A program made the translations under genes and the position numbers. Positions 9,103-23,145 of a stretch of 38,873 bases of DNA are shown here, one piece after another. The notes under the pieces were generated by a model. It searched no databases and was not told the DNA's origin. It saw only the letters and a program-made list of their open reading frames with translations. Each line of letters starts with the position of its first letter. Positions within the stretch are counted from its first letter, which is position 1. The DNA lies in the NCBI GenBank assembly GCA_019236695.1, contig JAFAIN010000121.1, forward strand, positions 1 to 38,873. Direction: 5' to 3'. Source of the stretch: Acidobacteriota bacterium (GTDB lineage: Bacteria; Acidobacteriota; Terriglobia; Terriglobales; Acidobacteriaceae).

Positions 9103-9196
9103 CAATTCGGCAACTTCAAATTCGGCAGTTCGGCAATGCTTCCGGTTGAGAACTGAAACTCGAAGGGTGAGAGCTAGATTCGGCAATTTCAGAGTC
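9103..9196. repeat. Degenerate copy of the CAATTCGG/CAGTTCGG repeat family, overlapping the 3' end of the next CDS
   Basis: caattcgg at 9103, aattcgg|cagttcgg|caatgctt at 9119-9141, further 'attcggcaatttcagagtcggcaa' at 9178. Confidence 0.65.
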
Positions 9197-11260
9197 GGCA
9201 ACCCGGGAATTCCAATGGGCGGCCATCGCCAGTGCCTGCCGTGCGCCCACGCGCGGCGTCCATTGCAGTTGATTGCGAGCCGCAGTGACGTCGAATGGAG
9301 AAAGCGGCCGGATGGAGCGAATGCGATAGCGCGAGAGCGGCAGCGGGCGCTTCAGTGCCCGCTCGGCGGCCTCGCACACCAGCGCAAGTGCGCCCAGCAC
9401 CAGGGGAGAGACGTAATGGACCTTGACTTTGCCCTGCAGGTAAGGCTGCAGAGCGGCAATATACTCGCGCTGCGTCACCGTTTCGCTATCCACGATGTTG
9501 AAGATGTGCCCCACGCAATCCGGTGACACCGCGGCTCGCTGCAGCGCATCCACAACGTCATCCACATAAACCAGGGGCAGCAGGCGATCGCCATTGCCCA
9601 CTACGTTCCACCGGCCGGCCAGCCCGATTACCCCCGAGGGTGTCACGAGCTCCGCACCTGGGCCGAAGATCTGCCCGGGCCGCAAAATCACTGCCGGCAG
9701 GCCGCGCTCTTCCATCGCCGAAATCACCATGGCTTCGGCCTGCAGCTTGGTTTGCGTGTACAGGCCGCGCCTGGCGGGGAACGGCTCGTAAGCGGAATTC
9801 TCGACCACCGCGACCCGCGGATCGCGCCCTGCATGGTCGAGCACGCTCAAGGAGCTGACATAGACCATGCGCTTGACGCCGGCGGCCAGGCAGGCTTCGA
9901 TGACATTCCGGGTGCCGCGGACAGTGCCGCGCTCGAAATCAGCGGCGGCGCCCTTCATCGCCGCTCCCACGTGGTACACGGTACTTACGCCTTCTACCGC
10001 GCGGTTGACGATTTCGGGGTCGCCAAGGTCGCCGCAAACCGCCTGTATTCGGGGATTCGTTTTCCACTCCGCCGGAATGCGGCGTACCAGGACCCGCACC
10101 GTGCCCGGCTGCTGCAGCAGACGGCTGACCAGCCGGCGCCCCAGAAATCCGGCTGCGCCCGTAACCAGCACAGGAGCAGGCGCAGGCGGCCTTAATTGCT
10201 GGCGGCGGTGCTCGTTTTTCAACTGGTCGGCACACGCGCAATCGCGCTCCATCGCGGCTATCACGCGGCGCCCTTCCTCGCCCGGAGTTTCCACCGGGGT
10301 GCCTTTCAGCAGCGCGTCATAGAAGCGATGAATGCAAACATGGATTCCGGGAGCTCCTTGCAGGCGCCCGGTCAAAAAGCGCAGCACGTTTACCGGAACC
10401 TGCACCAGGTCGGCGCCGGCTTTCTTCAGCGCGCCGAACACGTTGGTGAGGAATTTCGGCCCGGGCAGCGTACGAACCACGCGGCACGTCTGCAGGAAGC
10501 AATCCACATGGATTACGCCACGCGTGCCCGTTACGGTGATCTCGCTGCGGATGGGGCGCGCATTCCACGAGATGTACATCTGGCCCACGCCGCGGTCGCA
10601 ATCAACCGTGGCGCGCCACTCGTCGAACAGCAGGTTGGCGTCGAGCCCGGTGGAGCGGAAATCAAGCGAAGCGCCGCGCACCTTGCCCAGAAATGATTCG
10701 CAGATGGCGAGCCCGTGCACGCCCAGGTCCTGGAATGGATAGCTGCCCTTGCGGTACGGCGACGGCATAGGACCGCCCATGTATGGGGGATAGTCCGAGC
10801 TGCGCACAAACTGCACTGAGAGAATCTGGCCGCAGGCGCCGCTCGCGGCGATCTCCGCTGCCTGCAGCACCACCGGGTCCATGCGCGCCGAATGGTTCAC
10901 CGCAAGCACGCGCCCCGCGCGTTCCGCGGCCGCAATCATGCGTTCGCAATCGGCTTCCGACTCCGCCATGGGCTTTTCCACAAAAACATGGCAGCCCGCA
11001 TGCAATGCTTCCAGAGTTACGGCGCAATGCCACTCCGGAGGCGTCAGCACATGCACCACGTCCGGGCGTGTGGCCGCGGCCATTTCGGCAAAGCTGGCGA
11101 ACGCGGCGGGAATTCCGAAAGTCCCTGCCACGGACTCCGCGCGCGCGCGATCGAGATCGGCGATGCCGACGACCTCCGCCGAGGCAACAGACTTGAGCGC
11201 GCGCAGATGATGAGCGCTCACATAACCTGCGCCGATGATGGCAACTCTTAGCTTCTGCAT
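9116..11260 (-). CDS. Fusion: Gfo/Idh/MocA oxidoreductase (N) + NAD-dependent epimerase/dehydratase (C)
   Basis: N-term 'RVAIIGAGYVSAHHLRAL...HVFVEKPMAESEADCERMI' (GxGxxx and EKP motif); from about 10185 down a second Rossmann fold 'VLVTGAAGFLGRRLVSRLL' with 'YTQTKLQAEAMV' (YxxxK). Confidence 0.92.
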   Translation of the reverse strand: MQKLRVAIIGAGYVSAHHLRALKSVASAEVVGIADLDRARAESVAGTFGIPAAFASFAEMAAATRPDVVHVLTPPEWHCAVTLEALHAGCHVFVEKPMAESEADCERMIAAAERAGRVLAVNHSARMDPVVLQAAEIAASGACGQILSVQFVRSSDYPPYMGGPMPSPYRKGSYPFQDLGVHGLAICESFLGKVRGASLDFRSTGLDANLLFDEWRATVDCDRGVGQMYISWNARPIRSEITVTGTRGVIHVDCFLQTCRVVRTLPGPKFLTNVFGALKKAGADLVQVPVNVLRFLTGRLQGAPGIHVCIHRFYDALLKGTPVETPGEEGRRVIAAMERDCACADQLKNEHRRQQLRPPAPAPVLVTGAAGFLGRRLVSRLLQQPGTVRVLVRRIPAEWKTNPRIQAVCGDLGDPEIVNRAVEGVSTVYHVGAAMKGAAADFERGTVRGTRNVIEACLAAGVKRMVYVSSLSVLDHAGRDPRVAVVENSAYEPFPARRGLYTQTKLQAEAMVISAMEERGLPAVILRPGQIFGPGAELVTPSGVIGLAGRWNVVGNGDRLLPLVYVDDVVDALQRAAVSPDCVGHIFNIVDSETVTQREYIAALQPYLQGKVKVHYVSPLVLGALALVCEAAERALKRPLPLSRYRIRSIRPLSPFDVTAARNQLQWTPRVGARQALAMAAHWNSRVADSEIAESSSHPSSFSSQPEALPNCRI

Positions 11261-12685
11261 TTATCTCCCATTGTTTCCCTGTGCCAGCAGGGCCGGCTCT
11301 GCGGTTTCCTGCATGGGGTGCTCGCCGCAGGAGCGCTCCTCTGCGGTTCGAATGTTCTCAGCCAGGCAGCGGACAATCTGCGGCCATGAATACCTGCGTA
11401 CCGCGCCCGGCTCGGGGCTCACCAGGGCTTCGCCTGCCTGCAGGCGGTTATGGCACATGTGGAGCAGGTCACGAATGGCGGTGACGTTGAACGGATCCAC
11501 GCACCAGCCCGCGCGCGTCTCCCGCAGCACCTGGTCAATAGCGCCGCCCGGGGGTGAGAGCGCAATGATGGGCTTGCCGCTGGCCAGATAGTCGAACAGC
11601 TTGCCCGCGTGTGATTTCGCATTGGTTGCAATGAGCAGCAGCAGGTTAGCTTCCTTCAGCAGGTCGAGCCCGCGCTGCTTCGTCAAGAACCCGTACTCGC
11701 GAACGCCGGCGCGGCCGGAGAGCAGCGGCCTGCAATCAGGAGTCACCCTGCCGATAAAGCGCGTCTCGAACCCGCTGCGCACAGGCTCGGGAAGGGAATC
11801 CAGCGCCGCCAGGTAAGCCGCGGGCGAATACACAGGCGAGGCATTCAGCGTTCCGAAATACGTCACGATTGTGAGCCGCTTGCCGTGTACTGTTCCTGAG
11901 CCTGCGGCCGGGGTTGCGCCTGCCTGTTCCAGTTGCTCCGCCTGCGGTTCGTACCCGTTCGTAGTGCAAACGAATTTCGCGGGCGGCAAATCAGGGTAGC
12001 GCTGCCGAAGCTCCTGCACCCAGGGCGGTGTTGCAATGGAAACAATGCTGGAAAGCTCGAATGCGCTTCGCTCGATTTCTCGTGCCTTCGCCCATTCGCT
12101 TTCGCTCCAGCCCAGCGAGTAGTCGCTGGGACCGTCGGACTGTGAAACGTAGTAGCCCAGCCAGTCGTCGCGAAGATCGGTGACCAGCGTCAAATGCGGG
12201 AACTTGCGCTTCAGGGCGCTGCCGATGCGCAGCAGCGAATACGGTGGGGCAATCACGATCACGGTATCGATTGCATGCCGGCGAACAATGCGGCTTGCCT
12301 TGCGCAACGCGAATGGGTACCACAGCGACTGCACATCAGGGAACAGCCCTCTTACGGCTGCCCGCTTCAGGGCCCGTGTAAGGGCGGCGACTGCTCCTGC
12401 CGGGCTCGCTCCGGCGCCATCGCGCTTCCTTCCGGCCAGGCGGCGCCAAAGCAGGTCCTTCAGCCGGTATGGCGGCTCGGGGTTCCATGCCCGGTACACC
12501 TTGACCTCCGGCGGCACGAGTTTCTGCAGTTCCGGGTCGTGATAAGCGGTCGAAGGTTTGCGCACCGTGAGCACGAACGTGCGGCAGCCTTCCCGCGGGA
12601 AATAGCGTGAGTAGGCGATTGCTCTCGGCACACCAACGCCGCCGCTTGGCGGAAACAGGTAAGAGATGACTAGAACGTTTCGCAT
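11261..12685 (-). CDS. Glycosyltransferase (GT4-like)
   Basis: 474 aa; N-term 'NVLVISYLFPPSGGVGVPRAIAYSRYFPREG', C-term 'NAKSHAGKLFDYLASGKPIIALSPPGGAIDQVL'. Confidence 0.85.
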   Translation of the reverse strand: MRNVLVISYLFPPSGGVGVPRAIAYSRYFPREGCRTFVLTVRKPSTAYHDPELQKLVPPEVKVYRAWNPEPPYRLKDLLWRRLAGRKRDGAGASPAGAVAALTRALKRAAVRGLFPDVQSLWYPFALRKASRIVRRHAIDTVIVIAPPYSLLRIGSALKRKFPHLTLVTDLRDDWLGYYVSQSDGPSDYSLGWSESEWAKAREIERSAFELSSIVSIATPPWVQELRQRYPDLPPAKFVCTTNGYEPQAEQLEQAGATPAAGSGTVHGKRLTIVTYFGTLNASPVYSPAAYLAALDSLPEPVRSGFETRFIGRVTPDCRPLLSGRAGVREYGFLTKQRGLDLLKEANLLLLIATNAKSHAGKLFDYLASGKPIIALSPPGGAIDQVLRETRAGWCVDPFNVTAIRDLLHMCHNRLQAGEALVSPEPGAVRRYSWPQIVRCLAENIRTAEERSCGEHPMQETAEPALLAQGNNGR

Positions 12686-12696
12686 CGCCTCGCGCG

Positions 12697-15057
12697 CTAC
12701 ATCCGCATTTCCGAAATCGTCACGCCCTTGCGCCCGCCCTCGCGCGCCGCCTCAATTAACCGTGGAAGCGCCTGCAGCGCGGCTTCATTCGTCCCGTGAT
12801 AGAGGATGATGTCACCGTTCACGATCGGCTTGGCCTCCAGCCGGCTGGTGATCTCCTCAGGAGTGGCTGCCTTGAAATCTTTGGGATCGACGCTCCACAT
12901 CACGAAACGCTCCCCCTCTCGAACGCTGGCGTAAAGCGAGCGTAGCGCCAGCCTGCCGAACGGAGGGCGGAACAGAGTGCATGGCCGGCCCTGAACCTGC
13001 TCGATCAGCCGCGCTGTCATGGCCACTTCGCGCATTGCTACCCGCCACGGCATCGTGCTCAACCGCGGGTGCGAGTAGGAATGATTTCCCAGTTCGTGCC
13101 CCTCGCTGAGAATGTAACGGGTCAGTTCCGGCTCTTCCTCAATGCGATTTCCGATCAGAAAGAAAGTGGCTTTCAGCGAATGCTCTCTCAGGATTTCGAG
13201 AATTCGCGGAGTGAACACCGCGTCGGGCCCGTCATCGAAGGTCAGCGCGAATTGCGGCACATCCCGGCGGCCGTTCCACACCAGTGCCCGCCTGGGGTAC
13301 ACCGCTTCAAACAGCCGCTTCAGCAGACGCCGCGCCCCAGAAGCCGGGAACTCTGCGCGATAGCCGTAGCTGGCGCGCCCGGCGAACAGGCTGCCACCGT
13401 ACTGGTCCTGGGCGAACTGCTGCGCCGCCGCTCCGAGTGCGCCGCGCAATTCCGCGTCATCCAGAACCGATTCCAGGGCCGCCACCAGGGCGTCCGTATC
13501 CGCCCCGGCCGCCACCAGCCCGCACCGGCCCTGCACCAGCACTTCGGCAACCAGCCCGGAATTCATCGCCACCACGGTTACGCCTGCCGCCATTGCTTCC
13601 AGCATGGCCACCGGAACGGCGGAACTGCCCGCCGCCTGCACGTATGCGTCAAAGGCCGGCAGCCATGGTGTGTAGTCGGGCTGCTCGCCGGCAAAAAACG
13701 CATCGTCGATGAACCCGGCGCGCTCGGCGAATCGTCGCGCGTCATCCACCGCCGGGCCGGCGCCGATGACCACGAGGCGAAGCCGGTTCCGCGAGCGCCA
13801 TAGGCGCTGAAATGCTGTCATTACTTCCTGCAATGTTTCCGTGTTCCGGTTCGCGCAGCACCCAATGATCAGGCTGCCCGGATACAGCTTGCGAAACTCC
13901 GATCCCACGGTTGGCGTGTCATGTTGTGGGGGTGCGGAGACAGAACGCCCGTCTGTGTTTCTCGGGGAACCGCCGGAGCCGGCCGCAAGGTGATCCGGAT
14001 TCTCCAGGTCAACGCCGCTGGAACTATGGTCGGTTACCGCATGCTGAGCGGTTGCGAGTTCCGCCCGGAAGGCCGCAAAAGTCCGGCGGATGCCTTCTTC
14101 CGTCGAGATCGGTTGCTGCCACCCGGCATTCTTCAGCTTTGAGTTGTCGAACCCGTTCCCGGCCCACATGCTGCGGACCTTGTAAGGAGTGAATACCGCA
14201 GGCAACTGGCCCCTGGAATAGCGGTGGTACTTCTCCATGCCGAATGCCAGGCCGAGGAAGAGAGGATATGGCACGTGCCAGGCACGCAGCGGGCGAACCT
14301 CGCGGCAATACTGACGGAAGTACTGGCGGCAGGTCGGAATATCGTCGTCCACCACGTTGAACACCTGTCCGGCGCTTTCGGGCGCGAGGCCGGCCGTCAC
14401 GATGGCCTCGGCGCAATTCGGAGCGTAGCTGAGCGGCAGGCGGTTGCGCCCGCCGAGGTATACAAAACGTTCTCCCAGCGGCAGTCCTACGCGTGTTGAA
14501 AAGTGCCCGCCGCCTGGGCCGTAGATCACCCCGGGCCGGAACACCACCAGCTCGAATCCGTTTTTTTGCTGGTATTCCCAGAAGAGCTCTTCCTGCCGCA
14601 GCTTCGTATAGGCGTATGGGTCGCGCCGTACCGGCTCGGTTTCGAGCGGCGTATTCTCGTCGATCTTTGCACCGCGCCCCAGTCGGGCCACTCCGTAGAC
14701 GGCAAATGAGCCGATCAGCACAACCCGCATCCGCCGTCGCCCCACCGCCTCCAGCAGGTTCCGCGAACCGACCACCGAATCCAGGAACAGGTCGGCAATC
14801 GCGCCCCGCATTCCCGAGGCCAGGTGAATCACCGCATCCGCGCCGTTTACCGCCGCGCCAATGTCGTCGGGCGACTTCAGATTCCCGGCTGTGTATTCAA
14901 TGTGCGCATGGCGATATCGTGCGGCCACGGTTTCAATGCGGCCTCGCTTGTTGCGGTCGCGCAGCATGCATCGCAGGTCCGTGTGGCCGTTCGCCAGCAG
15001 GCGGTCGATCACGTACGTGCCCAGAAAGCCCCCCGCCCCGGTGACCAGAATCTTCAT
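12697..15057 (-). CDS. Triple fusion: NAD-dependent epimerase/dehydratase + GT4-type glycosyltransferase C-terminal half + CE4 polysaccharide deacetylase
   Basis: Start taken at 15057 (MKILVTGAGGFLGTYVIDRLL). Epimerase with 'YAYTKLRQEELFW'; central 'AYVQAAGSSAVPVAMLEAMAAGVTVVAMNSGLVAEVL' (GT-B C-terminal domain); C-term 'FALTFDDGPDAVFTPRILEIL' + 'HELGNHSYSHPRL' (NodB homology). One uninterrupted frame. Confidence 0.88.
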   Translation of the reverse strand: MKILVTGAGGFLGTYVIDRLLANGHTDLRCMLRDRNKRGRIETVAARYRHAHIEYTAGNLKSPDDIGAAVNGADAVIHLASGMRGAIADLFLDSVVGSRNLLEAVGRRRMRVVLIGSFAVYGVARLGRGAKIDENTPLETEPVRRDPYAYTKLRQEELFWEYQQKNGFELVVFRPGVIYGPGGGHFSTRVGLPLGERFVYLGGRNRLPLSYAPNCAEAIVTAGLAPESAGQVFNVVDDDIPTCRQYFRQYCREVRPLRAWHVPYPLFLGLAFGMEKYHRYSRGQLPAVFTPYKVRSMWAGNGFDNSKLKNAGWQQPISTEEGIRRTFAAFRAELATAQHAVTDHSSSGVDLENPDHLAAGSGGSPRNTDGRSVSAPPQHDTPTVGSEFRKLYPGSLIIGCCANRNTETLQEVMTAFQRLWRSRNRLRLVVIGAGPAVDDARRFAERAGFIDDAFFAGEQPDYTPWLPAFDAYVQAAGSSAVPVAMLEAMAAGVTVVAMNSGLVAEVLVQGRCGLVAAGADTDALVAALESVLDDAELRGALGAAAQQFAQDQYGGSLFAGRASYGYRAEFPASGARRLLKRLFEAVYPRRALVWNGRRDVPQFALTFDDGPDAVFTPRILEILREHSLKATFFLIGNRIEEEPELTRYILSEGHELGNHSYSHPRLSTMPWRVAMREVAMTARLIEQVQGRPCTLFRPPFGRLALRSLYASVREGERFVMWSVDPKDFKAATPEEITSRLEAKPIVNGDIILYHGTNEAALQALPRLIEAAREGGRKGVTISEMRM

Positions 15058-16157
15058 CGGTTGCCTCCCACCGTCAGCTTTTTCGGGTACACCTGGGCAA
15101 ACACTTCGTCCATCAGCGCGGCCACGCGCAGCATTTCGGAATAAGGAATCGGCAACGGAGCCTCTTGCAGAATGCTTTGGTAAAACATGGAAAAGAGCAG
15201 GCGCATGCCCGCAAAGAACTGGAACCGCGAGCCGGCAAAATCCCTGCAATTACGCAAGCCCTCGCGGAAGTAGTCCCAGCCGTACTGCAGGGGAGGGAAC
15301 AGGCGTCCCAGCGCGCTGGGAAACTTCTGGGCCCGGTCGAGCACTACGGTTCGCAGCGCATAGTCAACCCGCGCCGTAGCCTTGGTTCCATATACTCGAG
15401 CAAAATGCCCTAACGGCATGGCATTTGAGCAGAAAGTGGCATAGGCAGAGACTCCGCCGGCCTGCATCATCACCCGCAATTCGTCCAGCGGCGCCGTGGG
15501 GTGGTTGAACCGCCGGAACGCGGAGGCGTGCACCGCGGTTGGCCCTTCGGGAAGCAGGGGGACAATCTTGTTGAGCGCGTGATCAATAATGTTGTGAAAG
15601 AGCTGGCCGGGCAGCCGGTGGACCCAGTGATTGGAATCGGCCAGCAGCGCTTGTCCGAATGCGCTGCCCAGGTTGTAGCCGTAGTAGCTCTCGATGTGCA
15701 CAACCTCGCCCAGCAGGCCTTCCTTTATCATCTGGCGGAAGCGCACTGCTTGCGAATCGAAGTTGGGCCAGTAATTGATCGTCATCTTGCGCCCGGCAGC
15801 CTGCACCGCCGCCACGATCTGCCGCGATTCCGCGGCATCCATGGCCAGCGGCTTTTCTACGACTACGTGCGCCCCGGCAGCGACCGCTTTTCTTGTAAGC
15901 TGCAGGTGTGATTGTGGCGGGGTCGTAATGTGCACTACATCGAGCTGCTCGGCGGCGAGCATGCGGTCAAAATCGCTGTAGGCGTTCGGAATCCCATGGC
16001 GCTCGGCAAACTGCCCCGCCATCAGCGGCTCGATATCACAGGCGGCGGCCAGCCGCGCGCCCGGAATCGTTCCGATCTCCTCCGCGTGGCCGTCGGCAAT
16101 CTTGCCGCAACCTACAATGCCGGCTCGCAACGTGCGAATTGGTTCCTTACTCGACAT
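15054..16157 (-). CDS. Gfo/Idh/MocA family oxidoreductase
   Basis: 367 aa; 'RAGIVGCGKIADGHAEEI', 'HVVVEKPLAMDAAESRQI'; overlaps downstream gene start by 4 nt (ATGA). Confidence 0.93.
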   Translation of the reverse strand: MSSKEPIRTLRAGIVGCGKIADGHAEEIGTIPGARLAAACDIEPLMAGQFAERHGIPNAYSDFDRMLAAEQLDVVHITTPPQSHLQLTRKAVAAGAHVVVEKPLAMDAAESRQIVAAVQAAGRKMTINYWPNFDSQAVRFRQMIKEGLLGEVVHIESYYGYNLGSAFGQALLADSNHWVHRLPGQLFHNIIDHALNKIVPLLPEGPTAVHASAFRRFNHPTAPLDELRVMMQAGGVSAYATFCSNAMPLGHFARVYGTKATARVDYALRTVVLDRAQKFPSALGRLFPPLQYGWDYFREGLRNCRDFAGSRFQFFAGMRLLFSMFYQSILQEAPLPIPYSEMLRVAALMDEVFAQVYPKKLTVGGNR

Positions 16158-16201: not shown

Positions 16202-17275
16202 TCATGCCGGCGCGAGCTCGGGTGCGGCCTGCGCGGCAGCCACAACGGCTCGCGGATTTTGCCGCAACCGCAGCGCTTCCACCGCCAGAAACATCTGCCA
16301 TGCGGTTACGAAATAAATTTCTGCATTTTGCCGGCGCGCCTCTTCGGCCACCCAATGAAAAAGATTTCTCAGCCCGCCCTGTGCCAGCAGCACTTCAGCG
16401 TTCTTCTCCTGGCAGCCGTGCGTGTGCAGCTTCAGGAACAGGTCACCGCCGATTCTGGGCCCAAGCTCGAACCATCGCCGCGCGCGATATTCCGTCGGCG
16501 GATCGGAATGCGAGAGGTCGCCGAATTCAATGCGGGGCAACAGGCGTTCGGCCCAGCGCAGGCCGAATGGTCCGGGAATCATCAAAAGGTCGCCTTCCAC
16601 CCCGCCGCCCGGCGCCACATCCGGCCCTCCATCGTAGGACTTGGGGGCGTCCGGATCGTCGGTTGCCCAGTAAATGCTGTTTACTTTGCGTGCTTGTGTG
16701 GGCGCGGCGCCGGAAGGCATGGTGAAATCGGCGTAGCAACCGAGCTCGCGCAGAATCGTGATCTCGTCATTCAATCCGCAGCGCCGGCCATCCGGTCGCG
16801 AATTGTCCAGCGCCCAGTTGCCATGAATGAAGCCGAAGGCCAGGCGGCCATCACGCTTGCGCAGCATTCCATATTCCTGGTGCAGGGTGCGGCAGAATCC
16901 CGTGATCCGGTCGATGAAGTCGCGCCTGCCCTCGCCGTCATGGTGCAGGTGAATTTCCACATCCGCGATGCCTGCCCGCGCCATGCTCGCAAGTGGCTTG
17001 AGGAACTCGTGCCGGTACTCTTCCTCGGGAAAGAAAAACGTGTATTGCGGAGGCTGGCCGGCCGAATCGCGCTCGCATTCCGCGATCTGCGGCCATTCCG
17101 CCGCCCATTGCGCCACGCGCCGGTTGGCTGTCGCTGAATCCGGCTTGCGCCACAACGGCTCGAAGTGGTCAGCCACAGCCAGCCACACCCGCTTCACCGG
17201 CCCGGCCATGCAGCGCCGCATCCGGTCGGCAAAATAGCCGGGACCCCAGATCTGGGCGTAGCGGGGCAGCCTCAT
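16202..17275 (-). CDS. Polysaccharide deacetylase-like (beta/alpha barrel) protein of uncertain family
   Basis: Start taken at 17275 (MRLPRYAQIWGPGYF). Conserved-looking His/Asp motifs 'VADHFEP', 'VEIHLHHDGEG', 'FGFIHGNWALDNS', 'LKLHTHGC'. ATGA overlap with the upstream GT gene. Confidence 0.6.
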   Translation of the reverse strand: MRLPRYAQIWGPGYFADRMRRCMAGPVKRVWLAVADHFEPLWRKPDSATANRRVAQWAAEWPQIAECERDSAGQPPQYTFFFPEEEYRHEFLKPLASMARAGIADVEIHLHHDGEGRRDFIDRITGFCRTLHQEYGMLRKRDGRLAFGFIHGNWALDNSRPDGRRCGLNDEITILRELGCYADFTMPSGAAPTQARKVNSIYWATDDPDAPKSYDGGPDVAPGGGVEGDLLMIPGPFGLRWAERLLPRIEFGDLSHSDPPTEYRARRWFELGPRIGGDLFLKLHTHGCQEKNAEVLLAQGGLRNLFHWVAEEARRQNAEIYFVTAWQMFLAVEALRLRQNPRAVVAAAQAAPELAPA

Positions 17276-18528
17276 GCGTGCGCTCCCGCCAGCACCGGTT
17301 CCGGCGCCGCCTGCCATTTTGGCAGCGGCCGTTTCAACGCCGTTTCGCAAACCTCCAGGACTTCCCGCGCCATCGTCTCGAAGTCCCTGCGGAACTGCCG
17401 CGCCAGCAATTGTTCATCCCACCGGCGGTCGAGCGCCTGCCGCAGCGCCGCGGCCAGCGCCGCCACATCGCGCGCCGCAACCATGTAGCCGCAGCTCTCG
17501 TTCATAACCTCCGGAATGCCGCCCACGTTGGTGGCCACCACCGGCCGGCCGCAGCACAAGGCTTCGAGAATCGCGTTCGGGCAGCCTTCGTCGTAGCTCG
17601 GAAGCGAGAACACGTCGCAGGCTGCCAGCCACTGCGCAATGCTCGCCGGCTCCAGGCGGCCGATGATCTCGATTTGTTCGCCTCCCGGCTGCGCAACCAT
17701 GCGGCGGAGCACTCCTTCATCGGGCCCGTTCCCCGCAAAGATCAGCTTGATGTTCCGGTCGGACTTTGCCAACTCGCGCGCTGCCTGCGCCAGCTCCCGT
17801 ACGCCTTTCTTGATGTCGAAGCGGCCTACATAAAGAATCAAGTGTGCGCTGGGGTTAATCCCCAGTTCGCGGCGCGCCTCGGTACGGCTGCGCACCGTAA
17901 AAATTGCCGCGTCGCACCCGTTGTGGATGGCCCGCGTGCGCCCTGCATCTGCGCCCAGCCCAATGGCATGCTGGCGCAGCGATTCGCTCTTCGTGATTAC
18001 GTAATCCGCGTTGCGCACCGTCCAGCCGCTCAAGTAGCGGCTGATTGCATCGGGAATATTGTGGAGGTCGCTGCCGATGGAGCCCACCACCGCGGGGACC
18101 CGCAGCCGGCGGGCCAGCGTGACCGCCGCGAATCCTACCGGATAAATCCAGTAGTTCAAGATGACGTCGGGCTGCAGAGCTCGTACCAGCGGCTCTGCGT
18201 AGTTCGCGCAGGTCAGGCCGTTGAATGCCCGTGTAATCACCGGGAAAGCCGGATACTCAAGGTAGTATGCCTGCACCCCTCCCGGGGAGAAGTCCGGGTC
18301 GGGAGAACGGTGCCACTTCGGCTGCATCCAGCGCGGATACCGCGAGAATGGGCAAACCACCTGCACGTCAACCATTCGGTTCAGCGCCCGCAGCATCTCG
18401 AGGTTTGATTTGCCGCGGTACGGTTGGGCGGGCGTGGGAAAGCTGTGCGTTACCACCACGATGCGGCCAACGCCCTTGATGCGGGGCATTACGGGCAAGC
18501 CGCTCGGCAAATTGTTCTTGACCCGCAT
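17272..18528 (-). CDS. Glycosyltransferase family 4
   Basis: 'LILYVGRFDIKKGVRELAQAA', 'LPSYDEGCPNAILEALCCGRPVVATNVGGIPEV'; start ambiguous (18576, 18528 or 18489). Confidence 0.93.
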   Translation of the reverse strand: MRVKNNLPSGLPVMPRIKGVGRIVVVTHSFPTPAQPYRGKSNLEMLRALNRMVDVQVVCPFSRYPRWMQPKWHRSPDPDFSPGGVQAYYLEYPAFPVITRAFNGLTCANYAEPLVRALQPDVILNYWIYPVGFAAVTLARRLRVPAVVGSIGSDLHNIPDAISRYLSGWTVRNADYVITKSESLRQHAIGLGADAGRTRAIHNGCDAAIFTVRSRTEARRELGINPSAHLILYVGRFDIKKGVRELAQAARELAKSDRNIKLIFAGNGPDEGVLRRMVAQPGGEQIEIIGRLEPASIAQWLAACDVFSLPSYDEGCPNAILEALCCGRPVVATNVGGIPEVMNESCGYMVAARDVAALAAALRQALDRRWDEQLLARQFRRDFETMAREVLEVCETALKRPLPKWQAAPEPVLAGAHA

Positions 18529-18599
18529 CGCATTCGCCTGATGGTCGCGCGTGCAGCCCGTGGCCTGCACGAACACACTTCCGGGGAGTTCAGCGCGCC

Positions 18600-18790
18600 A
18601 ATCTACAACCTACGCGAAAGGTTACTTTCCTGAAAGGTTACTTAGGTTTGCGGCGAAATGAGCAAAACCATTGCGAAAGTAACTTTGGTAACTGGACCAC
18701 GCGCCGCGGCAGGCATCCAGCTAGTTAGCCGGCCGGCCATCGGTCTTCCTTTTTGCCGTTGTCTCGACGTAACTTTGGTTTACGCCGCTT
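18600..18790. promoter_or_regulatory. Candidate regulatory region between divergent polysaccharide operons, with repeated GAAAGGTTACTT / GTAACTTTGGT motifs
   Basis: gaaaggttactt at 18616-18627 and 18632-18643; gtaactttggt at 18679-18689 and 18769-18779; near-palindrome aaagtaacttt at 18676-18686. Confidence 0.45.
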
Positions 18791-18851
18791 CTTGTCGCCC
18801 CGGGGAAACCGCATCCTTTACCTGCTATTCTCGCCGCAGGATTATTTTCTC

Positions 18852-20423
18852 TTGAGCGCTGCAGCCACGAGTGAGAGTCCGGCCAGCCGGTCCAAAGTCG
18901 CCCAGAATTTTGCCTGGACGGCTCTGGAAATGATCCTGCTCACGCTGGGTACCCTGGCGGTCGGCATTGCCGTGGCGCGAACCATCGGGCCGCGGCGCCT
19001 TGCCTATTTCAACTATGTTTACTGGCTTACCACTGCGGGCAGCCTGCTGGGTTGCATGGGTATCCCGGGTACTACGTTCAAATATATGGGCGAGTTGTTG
19101 GGCAGCGGCGAGAACGGCGCCGCCAGGGCAGTGTACCGGCATACCTTGCGCCTGCAGGCCATGATCGCAATCGTAATCGCCTCGTGTGGCCTGGTGGCGG
19201 TGCTGCTGTGGGGCGACCCGCAGTATCGCCTCGTTTCTCTGCTCATGGTGGTCAGCGTGGTTCCGCAGATGCTGGGCTTTATCCCCTCGCAGGCCAACCG
19301 CGCCGCCGAGGATTTTCGCGCCAATACGCTTGCCTCGCTCGGCGCCGAATTCCTCAACATGGCCGGAATTGTAGCCAGCCTGCTTCTGCACTGGAACCTG
19401 GTGGGCATAGCCGCCACCATCCTGCTCTGCCGCACTGGCGAGTTCATCGGCAAAGCGGCTGCCGTGAGCCGCAGGCAAAAAGGCTTTCCCAACATTCCGT
19501 TGCCGGAGCACCTGCGGCGGCGCATGTGGAACTTTACCGGCCTGGGTACCGGCCTGCTGCTGCTGCAGGTCATCGTGTGGGACCGCTCCGACATCATCTT
19601 TCTCAAATGGCTGGCGACAGACATTCGCCAGGTGGCCTTCTTCTCAATTTCCTTCACCCTCGCGGACCGGCTGCTTCAGATTCCGCAGGCCTTCGGCAGC
19701 GCGGTGGGCGCTACTCAAATGGCCGAGTATGGCCGCGACCGCCAGAAGTTGTTTCGCATTACCGGCGTGGCCGGCATTTACGTACTTATGGCGGCTATGC
19801 CCATGCTGGTCGGGGCGGCGTGCCTGAGCGCCCCATTGGTCAGCACGATCTACGGCAGCCAGTATCTCCCCGCTATCTCGGTTTTTACGCTGGTCGCGAT
19901 CCTCGCCATTCCGAAAGCGGTGCTGGCGCCCGCGCAGAGCCTTCTGTACTCCACAGAGGAACTCGGATTTCTGCTGAAGTGGGGCTGCCTGTCGGGTGTC
20001 GTCAACATCGCGCTCGATGTGCTGCTCATCCCGCACATGGGCGCTCGCGGCGCGGCGCTGGGCAATGGCCTGGCACAGGCGGTGGCGGCAGTCGGCATAT
20101 GGTCGCGTGCCTTCTGGCGTCATCCCGTCAGGATTGACGTTAAGGCGGCGCTGAAAGTGCTTGCCGCCACGCTGTTGATGGTGGCGGTCGTGGTTCCCAT
20201 TGCCCGCAGCGGCTGGCCCGGTCCCCTGAAGCTGGTCCTGGGAATTGCGGCAGGCGCGGTTGTCTACCTCTCCGCCATTCGCATTCAGCGCGTCTTCTCG
20301 CGCGAAGACCGCCAGCGCCTGGTTTACGTGACCATGAAAATCCCGAAGTTCGTCGGCAGGACCGCCATCCTGCTGGTCAACTTCATTGCACCCGTCCCAA
20401 GCACGGTGGAAGCGAGCTCCTGA
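18852..20423 (+). CDS. Polysaccharide flippase / oligosaccharide transporter (Wzx/MATE-like)
   Basis: 12+ TM-like protein; 'VAQNFAWTALEMILLTLGTLAVGIAVARTIGPRRLAYFNYVYWL', 'IPHMGARGAALGNGLAQAV'. Start probably TTG 18852; ORF open from 18753. Confidence 0.87.
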   Translation: MSAAATSESPASRSKVAQNFAWTALEMILLTLGTLAVGIAVARTIGPRRLAYFNYVYWLTTAGSLLGCMGIPGTTFKYMGELLGSGENGAARAVYRHTLRLQAMIAIVIASCGLVAVLLWGDPQYRLVSLLMVVSVVPQMLGFIPSQANRAAEDFRANTLASLGAEFLNMAGIVASLLLHWNLVGIAATILLCRTGEFIGKAAAVSRRQKGFPNIPLPEHLRRRMWNFTGLGTGLLLLQVIVWDRSDIIFLKWLATDIRQVAFFSISFTLADRLLQIPQAFGSAVGATQMAEYGRDRQKLFRITGVAGIYVLMAAMPMLVGAACLSAPLVSTIYGSQYLPAISVFTLVAILAIPKAVLAPAQSLLYSTEELGFLLKWGCLSGVVNIALDVLLIPHMGARGAALGNGLAQAVAAVGIWSRAFWRHPVRIDVKAALKVLAATLLMVAVVVPIARSGWPGPLKLVLGIAAGAVVYLSAIRIQRVFSREDRQRLVYVTMKIPKFVGRTAILLVNFIAPVPSTVEASS

Positions 20424-22031
20424 ATGGCATTCTTTCTCACTCTGCTCTACGTCGCGCTGAATTTCTTCCGCCCGGAAGAATTGCTCCCTGACGTTGTTCA
20501 GTATCACCCCATGCTGGTTCTGGGCGTTCTGTGCCTGCTGGTGAGCGTTCCCACGCTGCTGGCTTCTGACACCGCGAAGAAGTCGCCGCAAGGCATCCTG
20601 ATGCTGGTGTTTCTGGCCGTGGTTGCGCTTTCCGAAATATTCAGCGGATGGTGGGGCGGCCTCAACGAGGTGTACACCCACGTTGCGCCCAGCGTGATCT
20701 GCGTGTTCCTGATTCTGGCCAATGTGGATACCTTGTTCCGCATCCGCGCCACCATGATCACTCTTCTGGTGTGCTCCGCCGTGCTGGTCGGGCAGGGAAT
20801 CGCCGGCTACTACACCGGCTACGGTTGCGACAGCGTCACCCGCTGGGCTGAGGACCCTGACAACGCACATTGCAAGTACGCGATGCAGCAGTACTCCTTC
20901 ACCACCGACGAGTCCGGAGAGCACCGGGGAGGGTTCATCTGGCGAATCCGAAGCGTGGGCGTGCTGGAAGATCCCAATGATTTTGCCCAGTTCATGCTCG
21001 TTCTCCTGCCTCTGGTGTGGATTGCCTACCGTAAACGTCACGCTTTCCGCAACCTGTTCGTGGTTTTCATCCCCACCGCGTACTTCCTGTACGGCATGTA
21101 CCTCACGCGATCGCGCGGAGGCCTCATCGGGCTTGGCTTCCTGCTGTTGTTTGCCTTCCGCAAGCGCCTGAACACGGTGAACGCCACGCTGCTCTCTGCC
21201 TTCGCCGTCATCGGGCTCGTTGCCCTCAATTTTGCAGGTGGCCGCTCCATGTCCGCGGCTGCCGGCGCCGACCGTGTCGCCGCCTGGCGCGATGCTTTCA
21301 TGACTTTCCGCAGCCATCCCATCCTGGGTGTGGGCTTCAACCGCTACAACGAGTACGCGCCGCTCACCGCGCACAACTCCTTCCTGCTGTGTGCGGCTGA
21401 ACTGGGCCTGGCCGGCCTGCTGGTGTGGATTGCGTTGTGGTATGTGTCGCTGGCCGACGTGAACCGGTTCCTGAAGTGGGCGCCATCCATCGCCACCTCG
21501 GCGCGCAAAAAACTCGCCTCGCCCGCCTACGCCTCTCCGTTTCTAACGCGGCAACCGGCCATGGCCCTGGCCGGAGGCGGCATCGCTACGGATGACGAAC
21601 TCGATGCCCCTGATCGCTTTCCCGGGGAGCGTATGGAACACGATGAAATTGCCGCCGCCACCGAAGATTGGAACGATGACGGCAGCGTCCACAGCCCAAA
21701 CCAGGGCCAAACCGATCGCGAAGGCACTATTGACGGCAACAGCGAAGCTGCGGCCGTTTCAGAGCAGCAGTCCGGCATTATCGCCACCTGCCAGCGCTAC
21801 GCCGGCGCGCTCCAGATGTCGCTGATCGCATTCCTGGTTACCGGCTGGTTCCTGTCGCGCACCTACGTCGTGCTTCTGTACATCCTGCTTGCGCTTGTTG
21901 TGGTGGTCGGCGCGCTCGCCGACCGCGAATCGGGCGGCCACTTGCCGGAACGCAAGCCGTGGGCCCGCAATGTGGTGCTGACCACGATAGCTACTCTCGT
22001 CGTTATTTGGGTCTGGCTGAAAATGTTCTGA
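20424..22031 (+). CDS. O-antigen ligase/polymerase (WaaL/Wzy-like) family membrane protein
   Basis: Multiple TM; 'NDFAQFMLVLLPLVW', 'YLTRSRGGLIGLGFLLLFAF', 'FMTFRSHPILGVGFNRYNEYAPLTAHNSFLLCAAELGLAGLLVWIAL'. Confidence 0.9.
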   Translation: MAFFLTLLYVALNFFRPEELLPDVVQYHPMLVLGVLCLLVSVPTLLASDTAKKSPQGILMLVFLAVVALSEIFSGWWGGLNEVYTHVAPSVICVFLILANVDTLFRIRATMITLLVCSAVLVGQGIAGYYTGYGCDSVTRWAEDPDNAHCKYAMQQYSFTTDESGEHRGGFIWRIRSVGVLEDPNDFAQFMLVLLPLVWIAYRKRHAFRNLFVVFIPTAYFLYGMYLTRSRGGLIGLGFLLLFAFRKRLNTVNATLLSAFAVIGLVALNFAGGRSMSAAAGADRVAAWRDAFMTFRSHPILGVGFNRYNEYAPLTAHNSFLLCAAELGLAGLLVWIALWYVSLADVNRFLKWAPSIATSARKKLASPAYASPFLTRQPAMALAGGGIATDDELDAPDRFPGERMEHDEIAAATEDWNDDGSVHSPNQGQTDREGTIDGNSEAAAVSEQQSGIIATCQRYAGALQMSLIAFLVTGWFLSRTYVVLLYILLALVVVVGALADRESGGHLPERKPWARNVVLTTIATLVVIWVWLKMF

Positions 22032-22050
22032 GCCCGGGGCCTGCGGTTCT

Positions 22051-23145
22051 ATGAAGATTGCGCACGTCATATATACGATGGAACGCGGAGGAGCCGAGCG
22101 CCTGGTCGCTCTGATGTGCCGCATGCAGCGCGAGCGGGGCGATGCCCCCGCCATTCATTGCCTGCATGCTGTGGGCGCCTTCGGCGAAGAACTGGCGGCC
22201 GAGGGTTTTCCCGTCGTTTTGCATGGGCCTGCCGGGCTGCCGCATTACTTCATCAGCCTCTACCGCGAGTTTCGCCGTTACCGGCCTGACGTGGTGCACT
22301 GCCACAATGCCACCCCGACCATTGCCGGCGCTCCGGCTGCGCGGATTGCTGGCGTGCCCTGCGTTGTGGCCACTCGCCACCAGTTGGTTGCGCCGCCCCA
22401 TAACTGGCGCCGGGAGCTTAAGTTCGCCCTCGCTTCTCGCTTCTGCCATTGGAATGTGGCCGTCTGTGAAGCGACGCGCCGCAACCTGCTCAACAGCGGG
22501 CTCGCTCCCGAGCGTTCAACCGTCACGATTTACAACGGCGCAGAAGGTCCGCGCCGCCTGGAAGAACAGCGCGCGGGAAGTTATTCCGCTGCGGGCGGGT
22601 TCACCTTCGTTCATGTGGGCAGGCTCGTGCCTGAAAAAGATCAGCGAACCCTGCTGAAAGCTTTTGCCATGGCGCAGAAAATTCGCCCTGAGCTGCGGTT
22701 GCAGATTGTCGGCGGAGGTGTGCTGCAGCAGGAGCTGCTCTCATTGGCCCGCGAGTTGGGACTCAATGGCAATTTTGAGTTCTGCGGCGAGCAGCGAGAT
22801 GTCGCCCCCTTTCTGCTGAATGCCGATGCCTTTGTCATGTCATCCGTATCCGAGGGCCTGCCGGTTTCCCTCATCGAGGCCATGTCGGCCGGGCTGCCTT
22901 TGATCGTGACCGATGCGGGCGGCATGGGCGAAGTAGTGAAGCTGGCGCGTGCCGGCATCATCGTCCCTCCCGGATCCCAGGAGGCTCTGGCCGCCGCCAT
23001 GGTTGAAGCCGCAGCCAACCCGCGGAAAACCGAGCAACTGGCCGCTTCGTCGCGCGCTGCTTATCTCGCCTACTTCCGGCCTGAAGCCATGCTCGACGGG
23101 TACAACCGGCTTTATGCGTCTGCCTTGCGGGAGGCCCACGCTTGA
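22051..23145 (+). CDS. Glycosyltransferase family 4
   Basis: 'YTMERGGAERLVALMCR', 'FVHVGRLVPEKDQRTLLKAF', 'VMSSVSEGLPVSLIEAMSAGLPLIVTDAGGMGEVV'. Confidence 0.95.
   Translation: MKIAHVIYTMERGGAERLVALMCRMQRERGDAPAIHCLHAVGAFGEELAAEGFPVVLHGPAGLPHYFISLYREFRRYRPDVVHCHNATPTIAGAPAARIAGVPCVVATRHQLVAPPHNWRRELKFALASRFCHWNVAVCEATRRNLLNSGLAPERSTVTIYNGAEGPRRLEEQRAGSYSAAGGFTFVHVGRLVPEKDQRTLLKAFAMAQKIRPELRLQIVGGGVLQQELLSLARELGLNGNFEFCGEQRDVAPFLLNADAFVMSSVSEGLPVSLIEAMSAGLPLIVTDAGGMGEVVKLARAGIIVPPGSQEALAAAMVEAAANPRKTEQLAASSRAAYLAYFRPEAMLDGYNRLYASALREAHA

Follow-up and report, generated by a model that had tools for sequence, protein, structure and literature searches.

Fusions of a glycosyltransferase with a CE4 deacetylase are already known from MatB of Streptomyces, which combines both parts in one chain in connection with a surface polysaccharide (PMC5972031), and CE4 enzymes encoded in polysaccharide loci are known as well, for example the holdfast deacetylase HfsH of Caulobacterales, which belongs to a polysaccharide synthesis locus and carries the five CE4 motifs (PMC8449245). 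Among the GT4 glycosyltransferases, BshA (PDB 5d00, 3mbo) is an active two-domain enzyme with the EX7E motif and the donor-site Lys, and a modelling study of GumH, another GT4 enzyme, assigned the first Glu of EX7E to the vicinity of the anomeric carbon and the second one to the ribose (PMC13104830). A literature search revealed no report of a fusion of epimerase, pseudo-GT4 and CE4. Here we describe a protein from an Acidobacteriota genome in which an epimerase, half of a GT4 and a CE4 deacetylase are joined; the window is the whole stretch of 38,873 nucleotides that was analysed. As a distantly related second genome has the same arrangement, the fusion is a genuine, though rare, innovation of gene clusters for surface polysaccharides.

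Domain Structure of the Fusion Protein

The fusion gene is located on the minus strand and forms an uninterrupted frame of 786 amino acids, starting with an ATG at 15057 and ending with a stop codon at 12697-12699. The protein consists, in this order, of an SDR epimerase, a linker, the C-terminal half of a GT4 and a CE4/NodB deacetylase:

12697-15057, minus strand: whole gene, 786 amino acids, SDR, linker, half GT4 and CE4 (open frame, Pfam, second genome with the same order)
14044-15057, minus strand: extended SDR epimerase/dehydratase domain, residues 1-338 (Pfam, motifs, fold match)
13906-14043, minus strand: Ser/Gly/Pro-rich linker, residues 339-384 (predicted disordered)
13336-13905, minus strand: C-terminal (donor-side) GT4 half without acceptor domain, residues 385-574 (Pfam, fold match, motif comparison)
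12700-13335, minus strand: CE4/NodB polysaccharide deacetylase domain, residues 575-786 (Pfam, motifs, fold match)

Pfam assigned Epimerase to residues 3-235 (8e-29), Glycos_transf_1 to 408-547 (3e-21) and Polysacc_deac_1 to 600-709 (1e-30), and no match to the N-terminal GT4 family was found in the 786 residues. In the SDR, GT and CE4 parts the GC content by codon position looks like that of coding sequence; in the linker this signal is weaker. Hydropathy analysis revealed no membrane segment. The triple fusion that an earlier note had read from the DNA alone is therefore borne out by the open frame, the Pfam domains and the second genome; the linker reads in this frame exactly as it had been quoted there, where the strand was left unstated, and the GT-B half without an acceptor domain is reflected in a Pfam match to the C-terminal family only.

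The SDR part contains the motif GAGGFLG (residues 7-13) and YxxxK in the form of YAYTK (148-152, with Y148 and K152). Its fold matches UDP-galactose 4-epimerase, other UDP-sugar epimerases and RmlB-type dehydratases with Z scores of about 29, but also cinnamoyl-CoA reductases, so that the fold does not single out one reaction; among the NCBIfam models listed, none reaches its cut-off for this part. In the CE4 part all five sequence motifs are present (TFDDG 606-610, HSYSH 659-663, RPPFG 697-701, DPKDF 724-728 and YHG 753-755), including the metal triad D-H-H, RPPxG and the motif-5 His, with DPKDF showing a Phe at the position where most compared CE4s have Trp. Its fold corresponds to the peptidoglycan GlcNAc deacetylase Bc1960 (Z 27.4) and to other deacetylases (Z 27). 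Judged by motifs and fold, the protein seems to combine two intact-looking sugar-modifying enzymes, SDR and CE4, in one chain.

Gene Cluster and Second Genome

The start codon of the fusion gene overlaps the stop codon of the upstream Gfo/Idh/MocA gene and only about a dozen bases separate its own stop from the next gene, which indicates a tight operon. The following features surround the fusion gene, where G589 is the second genome described below:

15054-16157, minus strand: Gfo/Idh/MocA oxidoreductase, constant neighbour of the epimerase (Pfam; stop overlaps the fusion ATG; the pair recurs at nine further loci)
16202-17350, minus strand: conserved cluster gene without Pfam or NCBIfam match (59% identical to G589, 44% to a CP070706.1 cluster gene)
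17272-18576, minus strand: full-length GT4 glycosyltransferase, TuaC-like, same cluster (Pfam, NCBIfam, G589 comparison)
11261-12685, minus strand: GT4-like protein, next gene downstream (weak, sub-threshold Pfam matches only)
9116-11260, minus strand: two-domain fusion of MocA and SDR epimerase, 714 amino acids (Pfam; paralogy)
18753-20423, plus strand: polysaccharide flippase, Polysacc_synt_3/MurJ-like (Pfam; 49% to the G589 cluster gene)
20424-23145, plus strand: Wzy-like polymerase (20424-22031) and full GT4 (22051-23145) (sequence comparison)

With its flippase, Wzy-like polymerase and GT4s, this is by predicted gene content an exopolysaccharide cluster of Acidobacteriota. The 382-residue product of 16202-17350 is rich in conserved His, Asp and Glu (HLHHDGEG, HTHG). 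The protein encoded at 9116-11260 has paralogs in the separately encoded MocA (26%) and in the SDR of the triple fusion (32%), and its two-domain architecture also occurs in another genome (G051, locus L035, 6399-8552, 717 amino acids). A second, stand-alone polysaccharide deacetylase gene is found on the same contig (26780-27802, plus strand).

Genome G589 (JABCYZ010000027.1, Acidobacteria bacterium Inc-BW-C-12-O_MAG13, contig of 91.7 kb) belongs to another family of the same class and encodes a 751-amino-acid protein with the same three-domain order, so that the search for further genomes with this order, proposed in the earlier note, yielded one case. Both fusion proteins are 45% identical overall and share the succession of SDR, linker, half GT and CE4 as well as the same cluster and neighbours, but the G589 protein has a shorter linker and a more degenerate GT half. 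The clusters are syntenic, with identities of 57% for MocA, 49% for the flippase, 48% and 52% for the GT4s and 59% for the unannotated gene.

The Glycosyltransferase Half

The two-domain layout of a GT-B enzyme is absent from the window protein, as only the C-terminal family is recognised and residues 339-384 are a predicted disordered linker. To compare the motifs, we used 11 GT4s, the GT4-CE4 protein of genome G387 (CP070706.1) and both fusions, and the solved BshA was aligned as well. EX7E appears as S479...E487 in the window protein and as D...R in G589, whereas E...E is kept in all 11 compared GT4s and in G387 (12/12). The donor-site Lys is replaced by E407 in the window protein and by G in G589, whereas it is kept in every compared GT4 or G387 row covering that position. 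As the acceptor domain is absent, EX7E is broken and the Lys is lost, sugar transfer by the GT half alone is very unlikely, which supports the view of the earlier note that this part may act as something other than a transferase. Its proposal of a donor-binding module is not supported: neither fusion retains the Lys or the first Glu, and one of them has lost the second Glu as well. Donor binding is doubtful, and weak nucleotide binding is possible in the window protein since the ribose-side Glu (E487) is kept.

The fold of a donor-side GT domain is nevertheless predicted, with the C-terminal domain of BshA as match (Z 24.4, rmsd 1.9, 173 residues). In the model of residues 341-786 the GT half and CE4 mostly reach pLDDT values of 85-98, whereas the linker is disordered, with values below 40 over most of its length, and a second low-confidence stretch lies between GT half and CE4. 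Due to a shallow alignment, confidence in the full-length model is low for the GT part and for some stretches of CE4, and structural conclusions on both parts were taken from the 341-786 model. Between the two fusions, the identity amounts to 56% for the SDR, 49% for CE4 and 21% for the GT half, which by this measure is the fastest-evolving part of the fusion.

Distribution and Origin of the Fusion

The fusion is rare and stand-alone epimerase orthologs are the rule. In the family of the window genome, 25 of the 26 genomes with matches carry a stand-alone epimerase (300 genomes searched), and the same is true for 11 of 12 in the family of G589 and for 9/9 and 6/6 in two further families, which adds up to 2 fused genes versus 51 genomes with a stand-alone epimerase across the four families searched. 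These two are the only fused genes known, and both originate from MAGs. A search with the GT4-CE4 protein in 399 genomes of the class gave, among the matches listed, one clear match spanning both domains beside the window, that of G589. Using the whole protein as query against genome contigs, no relatives were found, whereas an alignment of the CE4 C-terminus recovered JABCYZ010000027.1 and CP070706.1. According to the earlier note, a consistent split of the orthologs into separate genes would speak against the fusion; such a split is indeed mostly observed (51 versus 2), but the fusion recurs in G589. Wherever neighbours were inspected, the stand-alone epimerase adjoins a MocA gene, and in one genome (G1003) a full GT4 directly follows the epimerase.

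A relative of the C-terminal part is encoded by G387 (Acidobacteriota bin529, locus L097, ORF 9830-11965), where a GT4 with both domains is fused to CE4. As in the window protein, its C-terminal GT domain precedes a CE4 of the same type (46% identical), and the gene lies in a polysaccharide cluster, which also holds a member of the unannotated 382-residue gene family (44% identical to that of the window); unlike the window protein, that of G387 possesses the N-terminal GT4 domain and an intact EX7E but no epimerase. The CE4 tree places G387 together with the two fused CE4s in one clade (support 100/99), within which the fused ones are sisters (95/82). The window protein is thus part of this CE4 clade, but it lacks the full GT4 of the G387 type. 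The tree suggests that the CE4 of the fusion most likely came from a GT4-CE4 protein of this type, whose N-terminal domain was lost. For the GT half we infer the same source; since the GT-half tree does not fix the placement of the window and G589 halves, this descent is deduced from the CE4 tree together with the common domain order.

The epimerases of the two fusions are not sisters (AU p 0.00048). That of G589 is sister to the stand-alone epimerase of genome G538, and that of the window groups, with moderate support, with unfused proteins from its own family. The history would therefore fit a single old fusion that was lost several times, fusion on more than one occasion or horizontal transfer of the tail. 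We also asked whether the unfused G538 epimerase retains a trace of the linker, but the similarity of the tail is not significant (p 0.18 for protein, 0.08 for DNA), and no frameshifted remnant of the GT N-terminal half was seen when the other frames of the linker were read by eye.

Proposed Function

We assume that the protein is probably a soluble cytosolic bifunctional enzyme, whose SDR and CE4 parts are joined by a pseudo-GT spacer or dock descended from a GT4-CE4 protein. The N-terminal SDR and the co-encoded MocA dehydrogenase would alter a nucleotide sugar, and the C-terminal CE4 would act as an N-deacetylase on a sugar intermediate that is either cytoplasmic or lipid-linked. The middle part would be what is left of the C-terminal half of a GT4 whose fusion to CE4 dates back to an ancestor similar to CP070706.1, for which the CE4 part is supported by its tree and the GT part is deduced; the GT N-terminal domain would have been lost and the remainder joined in frame to the upstream epimerase. 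Lost motifs, divergence and model together suggest that the half-GT has no sugar transfer left and survives as a folded, fast-evolving pseudo-GT spacer or docking domain.

Alternatively, the half-GT might be a neutral relic of a passive deletion between neighbouring genes, a decaying middle without a role between the SDR and CE4 parts that matter. This would be in line with the low identity of the GT half compared to its flanks, with the different ways in which the two proteins lost their motifs and with the rarity of the fusion. On the other hand, the half-GT was kept in frame across a divergence that left the SDR at 56% identity, Pfam still recognises it in G589, and in the window protein it folds confidently in the model, and we regard a mere relic as unlikely. 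A docking function could also go further, as the pseudo-GT might dock on, activate or complete a partner GT4 of the cluster, e.g., the GT4-like neighbour encoded at 11261-12685, and bring sugar synthesis, transfer and deacetylation into one assembly around an inactive half-enzyme, but this seems a rather improbable extension. It is more improbable still that, in line with the earlier note, the half-GT binds a nucleotide sugar and thereby holds the donor or channels it between SDR and CE4: its nature as donor-side domain, the retained E487 and the likeness to the UDP-binding domain of BshA would allow it, whereas both fusions lack the first Glu and the Lys, the second Glu is an Arg in G589 and the linker is predicted to be disordered. 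The channelled pathway suggested in that note is likewise not supported. Finally, an assembly or binning artefact, a worry of the earlier note that is understandable for a fragmented MAG (363 contigs, 87.8% complete), can hardly be assumed since two independent assemblies carry the same order, the G589 contig from another family agreeing in architecture, open frame and neighbouring genes.

Comparison with Known Systems

With the pseudo-GT spacer or dock as the preferred reading, the fusion appears to record how a bifunctional glycosyltransferase-deacetylase was stripped of one half of its transferase and attached to an epimerase, with the order kept in two families. It is a clean test case for the question whether a degenerate GT-B half plays a structural part in the making of polysaccharides. 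It also draws attention to a polysaccharide cluster of Acidobacteriota that has been little described and that includes a conserved gene lacking Pfam and NCBIfam matches. In comparison to BshA, whose C-terminal domain shares its fold with the half-GT (Z about 24), the window protein has only one of the two domains of the active enzyme. HfsH is likewise a CE4 enzyme, but has neither the SDR nor the GT part of the fusion. MatB also differs in its construction, as it contains a GT2 instead of a GT4, with the full GT domain inside, a membrane helix and CE4 outside, and has no epimerase, whereas the window protein joins CE4 to an epimerase and half of a GT4.
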